Positions 46,442-59,572 of a DNA stretch of 64,000 nt are shown here, in pieces. The DNA is taken from assembly GCA_023953775.1 (NCBI GenBank), contig JAMLJD010000016.1, forward strand, positions 1 to 64,000, given 5' to 3'. The notes below the pieces were generated by a model. The model saw nothing but the letters and a program-made list of their open reading frames with translations, was not told where the DNA came from and searched no databases. The DNA comes from Rhizobiaceae bacterium (lineage in GTDB: Bacteria > Pseudomonadota > Alphaproteobacteria > Rhizobiales > Rhizobiaceae). Each line of letters opens with the position of its first letter. Positions within the stretch are counted from its first letter, which is position 1. The position numbers were made by a program, and so were the translations under genes.

Positions 46442-46882
46442 TCAGCTCCCGAATTTCGTCTGTGTGGTCGTCGAGGTCCTCAGCGCCGTGATACAGGCCT
46501 CGGGGTCGAGCCCCTCGCCCGCGCATTCGGTCGCATCGTTGACGAGGATCCGGCTCATCCCGCCGCACGAGGTGTCCGCCGCGTCGAACTGGCGGACCCG
46601 GGTGCGGCCTTTCGGCAGATCGCGGAAGTCGAGCACCATCAGGCGCTCGACCAGTCCCTTGGCGTCGAATAGCGCCACCTCGAACACCGCCTTGGTGATC
46701 GTCGCCGCGAGCGCGTTCTCGACTACGAAGGTCATGCGACAGGCCTTGTCGACCTGCTCGAGGCCGTTGAGCTCGACGTTCAGCGCCGCCTCGCCGTCCT
46801 GGGCCGTTACAGGTGCCGTTCCGACGGTCAGAAGGATCATTCCGGATACGAAACAGCGTATGCTTCGTGACGTGGTCACCAT
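46442..46882 (-). CDS. Small secreted protein of unknown function in the heme-receptor operon
   Basis: A 146-residue protein with an N-terminal signal peptide (RCFVSGMILLTVGTAPVTAQ) and a beta-rich mature part with four or so Cys (VDKACRMTF, DTSCGGMSR, ATECAGEGLDPEACITAL), suggesting disulfides in the periplasm. It overlaps the receptor stop by 7 bases and is 6 bases before exbB, so it is co-transcribed with the TonB system. Similar Tat/Sec-signal small proteins occur beside alphaproteobacterial TonB operons, but no function is known to me. Confidence 0.8.
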   Translation of the reverse strand: MVTTSRSIRCFVSGMILLTVGTAPVTAQDGEAALNVELNGLEQVDKACRMTFVVENALAATITKAVFEVALFDAKGLVERLMVLDFRDLPKGRTRVRQFDAADTSCGGMSRILVNDATECAGEGLDPEACITALRTSTTTQTKFGS

Positions 46883-48957
46883 ACGATCTCCTTGGCGAGC
46901 GACAGCTTGAAGGTCCGTCCCCTGCCGGGATCGCCGGCGAGATTGTTGCGGTACTGGGTATCGAACAGGTTCTCGACCGAGGCACGGGCTTCCCAGCCGC
47001 GGAATGTGCCGTCCTCAGGCTTCCACGACGCGAAGATGTCGTGGACGTTGTAGCCTGGCGTCGGCCCCGACGTTCCTGACGGGGCGTCGGCGGCGAAGAT
47101 CGACCGCCAGCCGAATTCGAGCCCGTATTGCGGCAGCCGCCCGGCCAGCGTCAGCGCCAGCGTGTGGGCGGGGATCGAGCTCAGCGGCGCGCCGGTCAGC
47201 CTGTCCTCGCCACGGATCGCGCTGTAGGCGGCGCGGGCGTACCAGTAGTCGGCCTCGTAGGCGCCCTCGACCTCGATGCCGTAGATCACCGCCCGGTCGA
47301 CATTGACGTAGTAGGGCACCAGCGCGGTGCTGCCGCGGTTCGGGTTGACGGTGATGAGGTCGTCGAGATCGTTGTAGAAGGCCGTCGTCTTGACCTGCGC
47401 GCTGTCACCGGCGCTCAGAAGGTCGTAGCCCGACACCGCGAAGCCGGCTTCATAATTGTTCGACTTCTCCTTGCCGAGGCCGAGGCTCGGCCCCCGCCCG
47501 CCGGGATAGTTGGCGTCGGGAAGGTTGCTGGCGAACATCTCATCGATGGTCGGGAAGCGCTCGGTATGGGCGATCGAGCCGAACACCGAGAGGTTGTCGC
47601 TGACCTCGTAGAGCGCGGCGATCTTCGGCGAGATCGCGGTGTCGGAGCGCTTCGAGGCTCCGGCGATCATGCCGGACGGTTCGGTCCAGATGCCGTCAAT
47701 GCGCACGCCCGGGATGATCGTCAGGCGTTGGTCGTAGACGAATTCGTCCTGCACGTAGACGCCGAGCCGCTTTTCCACGCCCTCGGGATGGAACGACAGC
47801 GGCACGCCCAGCGCGGTATCGGCGATGCGGGTCTGATGGCTCGCCTGCAGCCCGATGGTGAGGAAGTTTTCCCAGTCCGCGCCCGAATGCTCGATCGTGT
47901 TCTCGATCTTGGCCGACCAGGTCTTGTAGGCGTAGTCGGTATCGAAAAACAGCGGGCTCGGGATCGGTGACGATGCGTCGCTCTGTTCGTTCAGCGTGTC
48001 GGAAAACGCCAGGCTTATCCTGAGGTCGACCCAGGGGTTGTCGCTGGCCGGATTCTCGTAGCTCAGGATCGCGGTCTGGTCGGTCACGTCGCGGTCGACG
48101 GTACCGAAGGGCAGCGTGCCGGTCTGCGAGTAAGCCTGGTCGTCGGCCTTTCCCTGCCAGCGCTGGTAGGACAGCCGCAGCACCTGCTCGTTGCCGGCGC
48201 CGAAGCGGTAGGTGCGCTTGACCAGCCCGGAGAAGGCGGCAAACTCGGAGCCCTGGATCACGGCGCCGCTGCCGTCGACGAATTCGTCGGAGCGGCGATA
48301 GTTGCCGGAGAGCAGGAACTCGGCGTTGGGCGCCATGCGCACGGCGAGCGTCGTCGATCCCAGCGCGCCGTCGCCGTTGGAATCGTAGCCGCCCTTGAGG
48401 CGCAGCATGCCGGTCTCGCCGTCGGCGAGATAGTCGGAGGCATCCTTGGTGGTGAGATTGATGACACCGCCGAGCGCGCCCGACCCGTAGAGCGTGGACG
48501 AGGCCGGCCCGCGCAGCACCTCGACGCGCTTGTAGAGCTCCGGATCGGAGAAGAACGAGCCCATCCGGTACTGCTCGTAGAATTTCGGCACGCCGTCGAC
48601 ATTGACGATGATCTTCGATTCGTCGGCCGCCTGCAGCGCACCGATGCCGCGAATGTTGAAGGCCTCGCCGAAGATCCGGTCGCTGCCTACCGCGGTGACG
48701 CCCGGTATGGCGTCGAACACGTCGCCGATCGTCGTCGGCTGTTCCTGGTCGATATCTTCCTGATCGAGAACCGTCACCGCCTGCGGCGTGTCGATCGCGA
48801 CCTTCTCGGCGCCCGCGCCGACGACGAGACGCTGAAGCAGCGTCGTGTTGCCCGCGGCGACAGTCGTCGCATCTTCCTGCGCCCCTGCGGCACCCGCCGC
48901 GATCATCATCGCCGCGCCGCCCATAAGGACGACCCTGTTCCGTGACACCAGCCCCAT
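46876..48957 (-). CDS. hmuR: TonB-dependent heme/hemoglobin receptor
   Basis: A 693-residue outer-membrane receptor. Signal peptide VVLMGGAAMMIAAGAAGAQ; a plug domain (DTPQAVTVLDQEDIDQEQPTTIGDVFDAIPGVTAVG, then RGIGALQAADESKIIVNVDG and VEVLRGPASSTLYGSGALGGVI); then a beta barrel ending in a terminal aromatic (Trp). ATG 48957 has GGGAG at 7-base spacing; more upstream starts would extend before the signal peptide. Divergence from hmuPSTUV and the heme-type TonB operon identify the ligand as heme, by context. Confidence 0.92.
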   Translation of the reverse strand: MGLVSRNRVVLMGGAAMMIAAGAAGAQEDATTVAAGNTTLLQRLVVGAGAEKVAIDTPQAVTVLDQEDIDQEQPTTIGDVFDAIPGVTAVGSDRIFGEAFNIRGIGALQAADESKIIVNVDGVPKFYEQYRMGSFFSDPELYKRVEVLRGPASSTLYGSGALGGVINLTTKDASDYLADGETGMLRLKGGYDSNGDGALGSTTLAVRMAPNAEFLLSGNYRRSDEFVDGSGAVIQGSEFAAFSGLVKRTYRFGAGNEQVLRLSYQRWQGKADDQAYSQTGTLPFGTVDRDVTDQTAILSYENPASDNPWVDLRISLAFSDTLNEQSDASSPIPSPLFFDTDYAYKTWSAKIENTIEHSGADWENFLTIGLQASHQTRIADTALGVPLSFHPEGVEKRLGVYVQDEFVYDQRLTIIPGVRIDGIWTEPSGMIAGASKRSDTAISPKIAALYEVSDNLSVFGSIAHTERFPTIDEMFASNLPDANYPGGRGPSLGLGKEKSNNYEAGFAVSGYDLLSAGDSAQVKTTAFYNDLDDLITVNPNRGSTALVPYYVNVDRAVIYGIEVEGAYEADYWYARAAYSAIRGEDRLTGAPLSSIPAHTLALTLAGRLPQYGLEFGWRSIFAADAPSGTSGPTPGYNVHDIFASWKPEDGTFRGWEARASVENLFDTQYRNNLAGDPGRGRTFKLSLAKEIVW

Positions 48958-49061
48958 CTCCATACTCCCGGTCTTCGAGGAATGCTGGCTGGCCGCGGCT
49001 TGCTGGCATTGATTGCGTCCGGAGCGGTATAACTTGACTCTCATACTCCGGTATTGCACTC

Positions 49062-49087
49062 CCTATTAAACCTGATAATAGGTGTCA
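49062..49087. promoter_or_regulatory. Probable iron-responsive operator between hmuR and hmuP
   Basis: A perfect inverted repeat CCTATTA-N7-TAATAGG (49062-49082) overlaps a TGA-N9-TCA element (49073-49087), the form of the RirA iron-responsive operator in rhizobia. On the minus strand a TTGACA (49083-49088) abuts the repeat, placing it in the spacer of a likely hmuR promoter. Iron/heme-dependent repression is inferred. Confidence 0.6.
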
Positions 49088-49158
49088 ACAATTCAATTCG
49101 ACGATTCACGCGGTCGCCCAGCCAGCTTCGCAGCCAGGCGCGCATACGGGGTGAAGCT

Positions 49159-49359
49159 GTGAACACACATGACCGGATCGGCGACGCGTGGCGCGGCTCA
49201 CGCCGCGCCGGCGGGAATTCGGAGGCGGCCGACGCCGACATCCGCACCGTGGCGAGCGAGACGCTGTTTCGCGGATCGAAGGAGATCGCGATCGAGCACA
49301 ACGGCGCGCGCTACCTCCTGAAGATCACCCGCCAGGGCAAGCTCATTCTCAACAAATAG
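49159..49359 (+). CDS. hmuP: Hemin uptake protein HmuP (HemP family)
   Basis: A 66-residue protein whose last 40 residues are the HemP/HmuP domain (ASETLFRGSKEIAIEHNGARYLLKITRQGKLILNK). In Bradyrhizobium and Burkholderia this small protein is a transcriptional coactivator of the heme receptor gene. The start is GTG 49159; no in-frame ATG gives a sensible protein. It is divergent from hmuR, 201 bases away, and followed by hmuS after 9 bases. Confidence 0.88.
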   Translation: MNTHDRIGDAWRGSRRAGGNSEAADADIRTVASETLFRGSKEIAIEHNGARYLLKITRQGKLILNK

Positions 49360-49368
49360 GGGAACCAT

Positions 49369-50427
49369 ATGACCGACGCACCCAAGCCGGCGCCGGAAGA
49401 CATCCGGCGTGCCCGAACCGAAAACCCGGCCTTGCGCGAACGTGACCTGGCGCAAAAGCTGGGGGTATCGGAAGCCGACTATGTAGCGGCTCACTGCGGC
49501 CATGGCGCGACGCGGATCGAGGTCGATGTCGACACACTGCTTGCCGAGGCAGGGACGCTCGGCGAAGTGATGGCACTGACCCGCAACGAGAGCGCGGTCC
49601 ACGAGAAGATCGGCGTCTACGAGAATGCGAAGCCCGGCAGGCAGGCGGCGATGGTTCTCGGCAGCGATATCGACCTTCGCATCTTCTCCGGCGCCTGGGC
49701 GCACGGCTTCGCCGTCGAGAAGCATGGCGAGGACGGCGTCCGCCGGAGCCTGCAGTTCTTCGACGCCGCGGGCGATGCGGTGCACAAGATTCACCTCCGG
49801 CCGGCGTCCGACGTCAATGCCTACCTCGCCCTGGTCGAGCGGATGCGATCCGTCGATCAGGCGCAGGCGATCGAAACCACCGCCGGGCCCGCTTCCGGGA
49901 GCACGAGCGAGACGACGCCGGGCAGCCGCGACGAGCTGCGTGAAAAATGGGAAGCGATGACCGACGTGCACCAGTTCTTCGGCATCCTGCGCTCGCTCAA
50001 CCTCACCCGCCGTCAGGCGCTGTCGATGGTCGGCGACGACCTCGCCTGGCGGCTCGACCGCGACGCGGTGTCGGCGATGATGATGCAGGCCGCGCACGAG
50101 GAGATGCCGATCATGTGCTTCGTTGGCAACAAGGGCTGCATCCAGATCCATTCCGGCCCGGTCGTGAACATCAAGACGATGGGCCCGTGGCTGAACGTGA
50201 TGGACCCCGGCTTCCACCTCCATCTGAGGACGGACCGGATCGCCGAGTTGTGGGGTGTCCGCAAGCCGAATTCCGACGGCCACGTGACCTCGCTCGAAGC
50301 CTACGATGCCGACGGCACGATGGTAATCCAGTTCTTCGGCAAGCGCCACGAAGGCAAGGACGAACGGCCGGACTGGCGCAGGTTGGCAGAGCAGCTTCCC
50401 CGCCTTCCCGACCGCACCGCCGCATGA
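49369..50427 (+). CDS. hmuS: Hemin-degrading / heme-trafficking factor HmuS
   Basis: A 352-residue duplicated HemS/ChuS-fold protein: two related halves, residues ~30-165 and ~185-345, each with the RVEVDVDTLLAEAGTLGEVMALTRNESAVHEKIGVY / MTDVHQFFGILRSLNLTRRQALSM type pattern. It receives heme from the importer and releases iron or passes heme on in the cytoplasm. Preceded by GGGGA; overlaps hmuT by 4 bases. Confidence 0.93.
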   Translation: MTDAPKPAPEDIRRARTENPALRERDLAQKLGVSEADYVAAHCGHGATRIEVDVDTLLAEAGTLGEVMALTRNESAVHEKIGVYENAKPGRQAAMVLGSDIDLRIFSGAWAHGFAVEKHGEDGVRRSLQFFDAAGDAVHKIHLRPASDVNAYLALVERMRSVDQAQAIETTAGPASGSTSETTPGSRDELREKWEAMTDVHQFFGILRSLNLTRRQALSMVGDDLAWRLDRDAVSAMMMQAAHEEMPIMCFVGNKGCIQIHSGPVVNIKTMGPWLNVMDPGFHLHLRTDRIAELWGVRKPNSDGHVTSLEAYDADGTMVIQFFGKRHEGKDERPDWRRLAEQLPRLPDRTAA

Positions 50428-51308
50428 GGATCCACATGATGCGTTTCATCGCAGCCGCGGCCCTCGTGCTCGGCCTTTCCTGTCCCCCGGTGCAGGCAAA
50501 CGAGGTCGACACGCTGGGCAATGCCTCCCGGATCGTCGCGATCGGCGGGTCGATCACCGAGATCGTCTACGCGCTCGGCGAGGAACACCGGCTGGCGGGA
50601 CGCGATTCCACCAGCCTCTATCCCGATGCCGCGCTTGCCCTGCCCGATGTCGGCTACATGCGCCAGCTCTCGCCGGAGGGCGTCCTTTCGGTCGATCCCG
50701 ACGGAATGCTGGCGCTCGAGGGCAGCGGCCCGCCGGAAGCGCTGGATGTCCTGAAGAAGGCCAGCGTGCCGCTGGTCATGGTTCCCGAGACGTTCGACCG
50801 CGACGGCATCCTCGCCAAGATACGGGCCGTCGGAAAGGCGCTCGACGTCGAGGCCGAGGCGGACGGCCTGGCGCGCTCGGTCGGCGCCGAACTCGACGCC
50901 GCCACGGCGCTGACCGCCGGCATCGACGACCGTCGCCGCGTGCTCTTCGTCCTCAGCCTCCAGGGCGGCAAGGTACTCGCATCCGGCACCGGAACGGCGG
51001 CCGACGGCATGATCTCGCTTGCCGGCGGCGTCAACGCGGTCTCCGGCTTCTCGGGCTACAAGCAGTTGACCGACGAAGCGATCATTGAGGCGCGGCCCGA
51101 AATCATCATGATGATGGCGCGCGGCGGCGATCTCGATATCGCAGAAGCCGAACTCTTCGCCGTGCCCGCGCTGGCTGCGACCCCGGCCGCGCGGAACGGG
51201 AAGCTTGTGAAGATGAACGGCCTCTACCTCCTGGGCTTCGGTCCGCGCACGGCTTCGGCCGTCCGCGATCTCGCCCGGAGCCTCTATGGCGACGACATGG
51301 CGGACTGA
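50424..51308 (+). CDS. hmuT: Heme ABC transporter periplasmic binding protein
   Basis: A 294-residue cluster-type periplasmic binding protein with a signal peptide (MMRFIAAAALVLGLSCPPVQA) and the two-lobe TroA fold: RIVAIGGSITEIVYALGEEHRLAGRDSTSLYP and VGYMRQLSPEGVLSVDPDGM, the latter carrying a conserved Tyr as probable heme ligand. ATG 50424 overlaps the hmuS stop, but GAGGA at 50426-50430 suggests initiation at ATG 50436 or 50439. It delivers heme to HmuUV. Confidence 0.92.
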   Translation: MRIHMMRFIAAAALVLGLSCPPVQANEVDTLGNASRIVAIGGSITEIVYALGEEHRLAGRDSTSLYPDAALALPDVGYMRQLSPEGVLSVDPDGMLALEGSGPPEALDVLKKASVPLVMVPETFDRDGILAKIRAVGKALDVEAEADGLARSVGAELDAATALTAGIDDRRRVLFVLSLQGGKVLASGTGTAADGMISLAGGVNAVSGFSGYKQLTDEAIIEARPEIIMMMARGGDLDIAEAELFAVPALAATPAARNGKLVKMNGLYLLGFGPRTASAVRDLARSLYGDDMAD

Positions 51309-51311
51309 GCG

Positions 51312-52391
51312 ATGGCGGTGGCACAGGGTGTGACGACGCCGGCGCGGATGCGGCATGGCGAGGGCGACAGGTCCGGCCGGGCGCGGGTGGCAATCGCGCT
51401 GCTCGCCGTCCTGCTTGCCGCCACCGCGCTGTTCAGTCTCGGATACGGGGCTTCGGACGCTTCGGCCTGGACCTATCTGTTCGGCGATGCCGGCTCGCTG
51501 TCGGAAAGCGATCGCATCATCATTCACGATATCCGCGTCCCCCGCATCGTCATGGGCGTGCTGATTGGAGCGTCGCTCGCCGTTTCCGGCGCGGTGATGC
51601 AGGGCCTGTTCCGCAACCCGCTCGCCGATCCCGGCATCGTCGGTGTCGCGAGCGGCGCGAGCCTCGGCGCGGTTTCGGTCATCGTGCTCGGCCCGACCGT
51701 TCTCGCCGGCTTCGTCGCCGCCTTTGGCATCTTCGCGCTGCCTGCCGCCGCCTTCGTCGGCGGTCTCGCCGTCACCCTTGTGCTCTACCGTGTCTCGACC
51801 CGAAGCGGCCGTACGTCGGTCGCCACCATGCTGCTCGCCGGCATCGCGCTCGGCGCTTTGGCCATGGCGTTCACCGGCCTGCTTGTCTTCATGGCCGACG
51901 ACCGCCAGCTGCGCGATCTCACCTTCTGGAACCTCGGTTCGCTGGCCGGCGCGACGTGGAGCAAGATCGCCGCCTCCGGACCGATCATCTGCGCGGCCAT
52001 CGCCTGCGCGCCGTTCCTCGCGCGCGGCCTCAACGCGTTGACGCTCGGCGAGGCGACCGCGAGCCATCTCGGCATCCCCGTCCAGCTCTTCAAGCGCGTC
52101 GCGATCGTGGCCGTTGCCGCGTCAACCGGCGCATCCGTGGCCGTGTCCGGCGGCATCGGCTTCGTCGGCATCGTCGTCCCGCATCTGCTGCGCCTGATGA
52201 TCGGGCCCGACCACCGCTATCTTCTGCCGGCTTCCGCGCTTCTCGGCGCCACCCTGCTTCTGCTGGCCGACGCGGTCAGCCGGACCATCGTCGCGCCCGC
52301 GGAACTGCCGATCGGCATCGTCACCGCCGCGGTCGGCGCACCCTTCTTCCTGTGGATCCTGCTGCGCCGCCGCGGCATCCTCGATCTCTGA
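51312..52391 (+). CDS. hmuU: Heme ABC transporter permease (FecCD family)
   Basis: A 359-residue inner-membrane permease with about ten helices. IRVPRIVMGVLIGASLAVSGAVMQGLFRNPLADPGIVGVASGASLGAV is the FecCD/BtuC signature, and GGIGFVGIVVPHLLRLMIGPDHR the cytoplasmic coupling region. The N-terminus before the first helix is about 25 residues long and basic. It pairs with HmuV to import heme across the inner membrane. Confidence 0.94.
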   Translation: MAVAQGVTTPARMRHGEGDRSGRARVAIALLAVLLAATALFSLGYGASDASAWTYLFGDAGSLSESDRIIIHDIRVPRIVMGVLIGASLAVSGAVMQGLFRNPLADPGIVGVASGASLGAVSVIVLGPTVLAGFVAAFGIFALPAAAFVGGLAVTLVLYRVSTRSGRTSVATMLLAGIALGALAMAFTGLLVFMADDRQLRDLTFWNLGSLAGATWSKIAASGPIICAAIACAPFLARGLNALTLGEATASHLGIPVQLFKRVAIVAVAASTGASVAVSGGIGFVGIVVPHLLRLMIGPDHRYLLPASALLGATLLLLADAVSRTIVAPAELPIGIVTAAVGAPFFLWILLRRRGILDL

Positions 52392-52401
52392 GGCGGACGT
52401 C

Positions 52402-53193
52402 ATGATCGAAGCCCGGTCCATCTCGGTCGCCATCGGCCGCTCGCGCATCCTCGACGAAGTCGACTTCGCAGCCCGGCCGGGCGAGGTGACGGCGATCGTC
52501 GGACCCAACGGTTCCGGCAAGACGACGCTGATGCGCGCGCTTTCGGGCGATGTAGGCTATTCGGGTTCGGTCGCCATCAATGGTCGCGACCTGGCCGGCC
52601 TGAAGCCCTGGCAGGCAGCCGGGATACGCGCCGTGCTGCCTCAGGCGACGACGCTTTCGTTTCCCTTCACGGTGCGCGAGATCGTCCGGCTCGGCCTCAC
52701 CGGCGGCCGCTCCGGCGCCCCTGCCGGCGAACAAAGCCAGCTTCCCGAACGGGCGCTCGCCATGGTCGATCTCGACGGCTTTGCCGGTCGCTTCTATCAG
52801 GAGCTGTCGGGCGGTGAGCAGCAGCGGGTGCAACTCGCGCGCGTGCTGTGCCAGGTCTGGACGCCGGTGCTCGACGGCATGCCGCGCTATCTCCTGCTCG
52901 ACGAACCCGTTTCCAGCCTCGACATCCGGCACCAGCTCGTCATCATGCGGATCGCGCGCGACTTCGCGCGACGCGGCGGCGGGGTCGTCGCTATCCTCCA
53001 CGACCTCAATCTGACCGCCATGTTCGCCGACCGCGTCGCCATGATGTCGCAAGGCCGCCAGGTCGCCTTCGGAACGGTCGGCGAGGTTCTCGAAGATCAC
53101 CTGCTGAACCAGGTATTCGGCTGCGCGCTCAAGGTCGGGGCAACGCCTTCGGCCAGGATGCCCTTCGTCCTGCCGCAGTCCGCCGCGGGATAG
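52402..53193 (+). CDS. hmuV: Heme ABC transporter ATP-binding protein
   Basis: A 263-residue ATPase: Walker A GPNGSGKTTLM near residue 35, Q-loop VLPQATTLSFPF, signature LSGGEQQRVQLARVL and Walker B YLLLDEPVSSLD. WTPVLDGMPRYLLLDEP contains the insertion before Walker B that is typical of HmuV/BhuV rather than of siderophore ATPases. Last gene of the hmuPSTUV run. Confidence 0.95.
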   Translation: MIEARSISVAIGRSRILDEVDFAARPGEVTAIVGPNGSGKTTLMRALSGDVGYSGSVAINGRDLAGLKPWQAAGIRAVLPQATTLSFPFTVREIVRLGLTGGRSGAPAGEQSQLPERALAMVDLDGFAGRFYQELSGGEQQRVQLARVLCQVWTPVLDGMPRYLLLDEPVSSLDIRHQLVIMRIARDFARRGGGVVAILHDLNLTAMFADRVAMMSQGRQVAFGTVGEVLEDHLLNQVFGCALKVGATPSARMPFVLPQSAAG

Positions 53194-58609: not shown

Positions 58610-58637
58610 TTGACAGCCGCATTCGCGACCGTATTTA
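58610..58637 (+). promoter_or_regulatory. Sigma-70-type promoter upstream of the putative RNA and bfd
   Basis: TTGACA (58610-58615), 16-base spacer, TATTTA (58632-58637). Predicted transcription start near 58644, about 165 bases before the bfd start codon. Confidence 0.6.
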
Positions 58638-58643
58638 TGAACT

Positions 58644-58792
58644 GTGCCTTTGATGGCTGGGCCTTGAACCCACCCGATTGGAGGAAGGTGTGAGAGTATC
58701 CGAACAGGCCGCTTCGCGCGGCGCAAGCTCTAACAGCCCTGGCCGCTGGCCCGTCGCCGCAGCGGCGGCCGATCCTGCCTGGCGCGTGGCAC
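58644..58792 (+). ncRNA. Putative structured RNA (6S-like or bfd leader)
   Basis: A ~149-base segment right after a sigma-70-type promoter with no ORF I trust. Ends can pair (GTGCC at 58644 with GGCAC at 58788). A central hairpin is formed by TGTGAGAG/CTCTAACA (one mismatch) closing over CCGC-TTCGC-GCGG, with unpaired stretches on both sides, giving a rod with a large bubble as in 6S RNA; CTTGAACC is also seen. This identification is tentative: it could equally be the 5' leader of bfd-bfr. Confidence 0.4.
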
Positions 58793-58809
58793 GGTAGCGG
58801 AAGACGGCA

Positions 58810-59121
58810 ATGCTCGTCTGTCACTGCAACCTGATCACCCAGCAGGAAATCGAGGAGACCATCGTGTCGCTCCTCGACAAGGACCCGTGGCAGCTCATCG
58901 TTCCCGCGAAGGTCTACCATGCACTCTCCAAGCGCGGGCGCTGTTGCGGCTGCTTTCCAAATGTGGTCGAAACAATTATTCGGGTGACCGAAGATTACCA
59001 TCGCCGCCTCGACACCGGCGGCACGGAACATGTTTCATTTCTCGACCGCGTCCACGAGTTGCGCGGTCAATTCGGGAGAGGCACTCATGAAAGGCGAAAA
59101 ACGGGTCATCGAGCGGCTTAA
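58810..59121 (+). CDS. bfd: Bacterioferritin-associated ferredoxin
   Basis: A 103-residue protein; residues 1-70 are a BFD-like [2Fe-2S] domain with ligands C4-H-C6 and C45-C-G-C48 (GRCCGC). Bfd reduces the iron core of bacterioferritin to release Fe(II). The C-terminal ~35 residues are an unusual charged extension that overlaps the start of bfr by 35 bases, implying translational coupling. Preceded by GGAAG. Confidence 0.9.
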
Positions 59122-59572
59122 CGAGGCGCTGTTTCTCGAACTCGGAGCAGTCAACCAGTACTGGCTGCACTACCGGCTTCTCGAAGACTGGGGCTATGCA
59201 AAGCTGGCCCAGAAGGAACGCGCCGAGTCGATCGAGGAAATGCACCACGCCGACAAGCTCGTCGAGCGGATCATCTTTCTGGAAGGCCATCCCAACCTTC
59301 AATCCGTCGCGCCGCTGCGCATCGGCCAGAATATCAAGGAAGTTCTCGAAGCCGACCTTGCCGGCGAGCATGAGGCCCGGACCTCGTACAAGAAGTCCCG
59401 CGAGATCTGCCAGGAACTCGGCGACTACGTGACGATGAAGCTGTTCGAGGAGCTTCTCGCCGACGAGGAAGGGCATATCGATTTCCTCGAGACGCAGCTT
59501 CAGCTTCTCGAAGAGCTGGGCGAGAAGAAGTACGGCCTACTCAACGCCTCATCCGCGGACAGCGCGGAATAG
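59087..59572 (+). CDS. bfr: Bacterioferritin
   Basis: A 161-residue 24-mer heme-ferritin. Ferroxidase ligands E18, E51 and H54 are seen, with later ones in [11 protein letters not shown] and [14 protein letters not shown]; the heme ligand M52 is in [24 protein letters not shown] 59087 is preceded by GGGAGAG and gives the normal family length; a longer in-frame reading is not supported. Co-transcribed with bfd for iron storage and release. Converges with phnN, 3 bases apart. Confidence 0.95.

Follow-up and report, generated by a model that had tools for sequence, protein, structure and literature searches.

The DNA ahead of a bfd-bfr iron-storage pair of a Rhizobiaceae bacterium carries a 41-nt hairpin which, judged by comparison with its copies in related genomes, is probably a cis-acting mRNA element placed at the ribosome-binding sites of iron genes and a regulatory RNA family of this order, undescribed within the limits of Rfam 15 and the open-licence literature. 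The window, that is the whole stretch of 64,000 nucleotides analyzed here, had been singled out in an earlier note for a promoter-led, non-coding piece of about 149 nt upstream of bfd-bfr, which was proposed to be 6S RNA or else a structured leader of the iron-storage operon. The real signal in this piece is the 41-nt hairpin at its 5′ end. The idea of a structured iron-operon leader that may act as a post-transcriptional switch thus stands in outline, with a structure of about 40 nt instead of 149 nt and with the switch itself inferred.

The hairpin and its locus

The features of the locus, with positions in the window and strand, are as follows.

58610..58615, +, -35 hexamer TTGACA (from sequence; TTGAC in relatives)
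58632..58637, +, -10-like hexamer TATTTA (from sequence; 16-nt spacer)
58646..58686, +, conserved RNA hairpin element (covariance model R1, 60.1 bits)
58647..58655, +, P1 5′ strand CCTTTGATG, complementary to the Shine-Dalgarno strand
58657..58661, +, P2 5′ strand CTGGG (fold, covariation)
58662..58668, +, apical heptaloop CCTTGAA (CCUUKAA in most copies)
58669..58673, +, P2 3′ strand CCCAC (fold, covariation)
58677..58684, +, P1 3′ strand ATTGGAGG, after the bulged base 58676
58680..58684, +, Shine-Dalgarno GGAGG, inside the P1 3′ strand (from sequence)
58690..58797, +, candidate leader ORF, GTG start, 35 codons, TAG stop, 12 nt before bfd
58810..59121, +, bfd-like [2Fe-2S] ferredoxin gene (Fer2_BFD match; position before bfr)
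59087..59572, +, bfr, bacterioferritin (PF00210; TIGR00754, 181 bits)

In alignment columns the hairpin consists of P1 (2-10/30-39, with the bulge at 31), P2 (12-16/24-28) and the heptaloop CCUUKAA, and in the folded P1 the GGAGG is paired with CCUUU. The window copy has C58657 opposite C58673, unpaired. Folded alone, this copy takes the proposed fold at -14.8 kcal/mol (z -1.13); three of four other copies also take it (z -2.56, -2.20 and -3.32) and one takes another fold (z -0.53), two of the five folded copies being near the shuffle mean (z -0.53 and -1.13).

The longer structure did not hold. The 149-nt fold has -59.5 kcal/mol; its shuffles average -64.2 (z +1.17), 183 of 200 being equally or more stable. 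A structure of the whole 149 nt or of 217 nt was rejected for want of excess stability (z +1.17 and +0.41). The complementary ends are present as a GUGCC/GGCAC pair in the predicted fold, which is itself no better than chance. The supposed central GC-rich hairpin is not conserved as such, since a DNA search of 60 relatives recovered, besides a few GC-rich scraps, only positions 58645-58687 of the window. The description of the piece as non-coding is doubtful in view of the GTG-started frame listed above.

The bfd-like product matches Fer2_BFD at E 0.0039, under Pfam's cut-off. Its gene overlaps bfr by 35 nt, and hence this pair may also be translationally coupled.

Conservation and distribution

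The relatives' copies of 58645-58687 precede other iron genes. With one mismatch allowed, the pattern GGGCCTTNNMCCCNNNNGATTGGA occurs in 82 of 297 family genomes, representing 36 of 109 genera, and its backwards form gives 2 hits. The window's own genome has one exact hit; four others at 3 mismatches equal the four of the backwards pattern. In a set of 93 copies, the conserved part spans only -12 to +26 around the GGG, after which a start codon follows at about +31. This set was made from 96 copies by leaving out two without a stem by eye (L042, L074) and one duplicate (L032, of L003).

The covariance model finds the element in 72 of 297 order genomes, and at class level in 2 of 289, namely the window's own genome and one with a partial match of 25.6 bits, near which none of the tested iron genes lies. 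The element hardly occurs outside the order. Carriers among the matches listed include Mesorhizobium, Phyllobacterium, Brucella (Ochrobactrum group), Pseudochrobactrum, Aminobacter and Methylobrevis. For the 179-copy set, the 96 model matches were reduced by three repeats or spurious matches and by six already in the family set, and L122 stands for the window copy; order-level loci were taken in as 30 plus 60 of the model matches, and the family hit G221 was left out.

Rfam 15 has no family match at the element in the window or at 13 other loci. In the open-licence literature, compared through the available portions of PMC9131926, PMC6800512, PMC1273637, PMC2864571, PMC3413700 and PMC3188799, no description of the element was met; a 2017 collection of 224 candidate RNAs and a 2006 paper on the alphaproteobacterial iron regulon lie outside this scope. 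A 'Rhizobiales-1' entry, known here by its listing alone, stands in the 2010 list of PMC2864571 without an Rfam number and apparently marked 'n' for cis-regulation.

Small inverted repeats were seen by eye on both sides of the element. A second one lies around the leader start, at about +24 to +40, in L078, L086, L092 and similar loci; it reads GACC..ATG..GGTC, or GAACC..GGTTC in some bfd copies, and may form another hairpin. A variable small hairpin at about -30 to -13 occurs in many family copies (L021, L059, L070 and similar loci) and is missing from the window copy.

Covariation of the hairpin

Alignment A1 holds 69 of 70 distinct copies (L031 left out), and alignment A5 adds 54 new distinct, gap-free, in-register copies from the 96 model matches. 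With the 69 copies, none of 500 shuffles reached the observed pairing, compensatory cells or covariation score, and the two measures which count pairs and pair types were unremarkable, so that support is moderate at this depth. With 123 distinct copies, 8 of the 14 pairs are altered on both sides, compensatory cells number 97 as compared with 31 in shuffles, and each of the five measures lies above all 500 shuffles, values that are inflated to the extent that the shuffles ignore relatedness.

The proposed structure pairs 89.5% of cells, and structures slid by 1-3 columns pair 30-58%. Corrected mutual information over all column pairs ranks 13-27 at the top and 2-39 next, with 16-24 tenth. RNAalifold proposes P2 alone and not P1; the partner bases of P1 vary little, and its support therefore comes mostly from one-sided changes. 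Pairs of G-U type are kept at 13-27 (UG 18, GU 9), at 10-30 (GU 13) and in most of P1.

A conserved peptide FDVWALNPFDWR read from the element was also considered and rejected: in 42 of 93 copies its frame reaches a stop with no start codon ahead of it, and its third codon positions show about the same conservation as the first and second.

Downstream genes and leader frames

Downstream genes of the 179 copies were scored by tblastn on the same strand within 1.7 kb. Imelysin, an FbpA-type binding protein, bfd or bfr follows 134 of them, and this conserved structure on the same strand before four types of iron gene is what is expected of a cis-regulatory leader RNA. A Cys-rich protein of the same loci is the sole downstream match in 30, and nine have FTR1 with cupredoxin, FeoA, SufA/HesB-like, ABM-domain or DUF2325 genes, the queries for these nine being drawn from the loci themselves and hence not independent. 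The six copies without any tested gene include two with DUF6746 and one with a histidine phosphatase. Linkage of the element to iron genes is near-exclusive. Named organisms contribute 115 copies, of which 60 have imelysin as the nearest tested gene, 37 the Cys-rich protein and 13 bfd; the remaining five have no match within less than 350 bases of downstream sequence. DUF2325 genes (L267, L307) and DUF6746 genes (L044, L105) stand directly behind the element and are candidates for iron-linked roles.

A start codon lies at +28 to +36 from the GGG in 176 of 179 copies; a stretch of the same length farther downstream holds one in 62 of 179. Where FbpA is nearest, the frame opened there runs for at least 800 nt in 34 of 36 copies and is the gene itself; where imelysin is nearest, 13 of 36 frames are of this length. 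At bfd loci the start codon opens a short ORF whose end lies no more than 20 nt from the bfd start in 20 of 27 cases (six outside, one running on), and none of 68 control ORFs in other frames does so; one further bfd locus has no start codon at +28 to +36. For the Cys-rich gene the ORF ends within 20 nt in 35 of 42 loci, is the same ORF in five and ends outside in two, and 9 of 83 control ORFs end within 20 nt, the choice of gene start being permissive in both sets. As these leader ORFs end at the start of the next gene, translational coupling is likely their reason. The window's own leader ORF is short and has a GTG start.

Promoter and upstream palindrome

The promoter claimed by the earlier note is there as the hexamer pair TTGACA/TATTTA, which falls short of a strong consensus match and is absent from the list of a simple promoter scan. 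Of the 179 copies, 151 have TTGAC at -90 to -40 of the element and 6 have the reversed word there, which makes a promoter in that place credible. In the window the -35 is nearer to the element than elsewhere.

Further upstream, 158 of 178 copies have a palindrome that departs from TTTAGAANNNTTCTAAA, the Irr box (ICE) consensus, at no more than 4 positions, mostly near -119 to -113; among shuffled stretches the count is 20 of 178, and among downstream ones 6 of 175. We take this palindrome to be an Irr box (ICE), or at least Irr-box-like. The window copy lacks it (6 mismatches at the best upstream site, and no site within 3 mismatches anywhere in the window) and may therefore be under different transcriptional control.

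Candidate protein partners

The Cys-rich protein (L143:807-1313, minus strand, and relatives, in alignments A3 and A4) belongs to a family of about 170 residues, all-helical, whose genes in many genomes directly follow the element or neighbour FbpA/imelysin. It has no Pfam or NCBIfam family. Its predicted structure (mean pLDDT 87.1) retrieved nothing among solved folds at E <= 0.001, its sequence gave one match to solved structures, a designed protein at E 0.25, and plasmid records hold no relative at E 1e-5.

This protein is found in 100 of 297 order genomes and in 50 of the 72 with the element (Fisher p 6e-13, uncorrected for kinship), a co-occurrence which is partly trivial because its gene is itself a target. 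It is missing from 22 of the 72, including the window's own genome (90.5% complete) and near-complete relatives that bear the element, e.g. G240, and was on this account rejected as an obligate trans factor. HemP is also found in 100 of 297 order genomes, and in 30 of the 72 (p 0.12, no association). Genomes that bear the element include some that have and some that lack either candidate, and neither is its obligate partner.

Proposed mechanism and alternatives

In its folded state P1 would pair the GGAGG and hide the Shine-Dalgarno sequence from the ribosome, and the hairpin is therefore most simply an OFF state. Such an OFF switch may be read by iron status: when iron is scarce, the weak, wobble-rich P1 would open, and when it is plentiful, P1 would be locked by a ligand or by an RNA-binding protein recognising the CCUUKAA loop, adding a translational layer to the control by Irr/RirA. 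P1 retains wobble pairs at places that could hold stronger ones, as would suit a helix that has to open. The start codon so controlled would be that of the iron gene itself (FbpA type) or of a short leader ORF (bfd, Cys-rich protein), and since the end of the leader ORF meets the gene start, leader translation would carry over to the gene. Since uptake genes and bacterioferritin bear one and the same element, a single simple iron rule may not cover them all.

Taken further, we put forward tentatively, as a plausible picture short of a probable one, an RNA iron sensor in which one hairpin, read by a ligand or a protein, sets the translation of a regulon, partly through coupled leader ORFs, as a bacterial counterpart of the IRE. 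Its regulon, for which our confidence is equally guarded, may comprise ferric import, Feo, an EfeU-type permease, imelysin, the bacterioferritin pair and an Fe-S carrier across Hyphomicrobiales.

As to how the hairpin would be read, it may be the operator of an RNA-binding protein, for instance the Cys-rich protein or aconitase, which represses or activates translation. This is a real possibility, if on balance a doubtful one. A small hairpin with an invariant apical loop at a ribosome-binding site would suit it, by analogy with the animal IRE/IRP pair, as would the 50 genomes shared with the Cys-rich protein and the element often carried by the gene of this protein; the absence of the protein from almost a third of the element genomes, the partly trivial co-occurrence and the lack of association with HemP/HmuP speak against it.

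We consider somewhat unlikely, as a special case of the cis-acting switch proposed above, a riboswitch in which the hairpin alone binds a small molecule or metal tied to iron (Fe2+, heme or an iron chelate) with no protein. Covariation and the Shine-Dalgarno sequence inside P1 correspond to a conserved structured aptamer beside an expression platform, the occurrence of the element irrespective of both protein candidates is consistent with it, and THF-II, upstream of folE in the same order, is a precedent according to the available text of PMC6800512. The conserved bases, however, lie in the apical loop and one strand and not in a bulge region as in THF-II, and there is no conserved flank able to form a pseudoknot.

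The fixed position at the ribosome-binding site would also agree with a constitutive element for translation or stability which senses nothing, an unlikely reading given that the restriction to iron genes and P1 over the Shine-Dalgarno sequence favour regulation. Iron genes are commonly controlled by small RNAs in other bacteria, and the invariant CCUU of the loop could be the target of a trans-acting small RNA pairing with CCUUKAA; we hold this to be improbable, as the fifth loop base is G or U even within one genome (G016, G212) and is thus ill suited to one complementary partner. A DNA-binding site in place of an RNA structure is very improbable: hairpins double as inverted repeats in DNA and iron regulators act nearby, but pairs of G-U type are kept and the element lies downstream of the promoter at a fixed distance before the start codon. 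That the stretch is 6S RNA can be practically dismissed, the promoter ahead and the pairing ends being its only points in common with RF00013, as this model has no match over the gathering threshold in the window (a permissive Rfam scan of 601 bases gave three matches, far below thresholds and all on the opposite strand), the 6S gene of the genome is located elsewhere, on contig C25 (G000:C25:23566-23721, 74.7 bits, above the RF00013 cut-off), and the 149-nt fold is no steadier than its shuffles.

Significance

Accounts of iron control in this order centre on the DNA-binding regulators Irr and RirA. A hairpin at the ribosome sites of iron import, storage and Fe-S genes would give this network a translational arm. 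The compact 41-nt RNA can be used directly in tests for an iron-linked ligand or binding protein, and the covariance model provides a means of finding more members of the regulon, including genes of the Cys-rich protein, DUF2325 and DUF6746.

Comparison with known systems

The Irr box (ICE), named and assigned its role here after the available portions of PMC3413700, which also report that bfd and bfr of Rhodobacter rise under iron limitation, serves the same genes, and a similar palindrome stands about 100 nt upstream of most copies of the element. Irr binds this box as DNA, ahead of the promoter, whereas the hairpin lies downstream of the promoter, in the transcript.

The HmuP-responsive element (HPRE) is, in the portions available of PMC9131926, a conserved motif in the 5′ leader of iron-acquisition genes which is thought to act post-transcriptionally, and it resembles the element in being a leader motif of such genes in overlapping bacteria. 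Its sequence is GCCAGCCAG-like, in contrast to CCUUUGAU-GGGCCUUKAACCC-AUUGGAGG of the element, and it serves heme receptors only; the presence of HemP does not track the element. Identity with the HPRE/HmuP system was therefore rejected, as the sequence differs from the HPREs in those portions of PMC9131926 and HemP/HmuP does not co-occur. The window does hold a heme uptake cluster (46876-53193), with a TonB receptor (PF00593, minus strand), HemP (PF10636, 49249-49356) and genes resembling HmuS, HmuT, HmuU and HmuV by translation. On its minus strand, GCCAGCAAGCCGCGGCCAGCCAG (48985-49007), before the heme receptor ATG at 48963, resembles the published HmuP-responsive element, and this genome may accordingly hold two different iron leader motifs.

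With the animal IRE the element shares a fixed apical loop, one bulge and a place in the leaders of iron uptake and storage genes, which is an analogy of working only. The animal IRE has a hexaloop CAGUGN and a bulged C. The element differs in its heptaloop CCUUKAA and in its bulge, no common descent being suggested, and it lies on a bacterial Shine-Dalgarno sequence, unlike the IRE, whose partner is IRP.

In layout the element resembles THF-II, which in the available portions of PMC6800512 occurs only in Rhizobiales and consists of one hairpin whose P1 holds the ribosome-binding site in its right shoulder. The element is likewise a small hairpin of the same order with a start codon shortly after, and its GGAGG in the P1 3′ strand is the corresponding site. 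The two differ in that THF-II stands upstream of folE and has a conserved internal bulge, whereas the element stands upstream of iron genes and has a conserved apical loop, leader ORFs and no Rfam match. By analogy, and as far as those portions of PMC6800512 go, THF-II shows that a hairpin of about the size and layout of the element can be a riboswitch.
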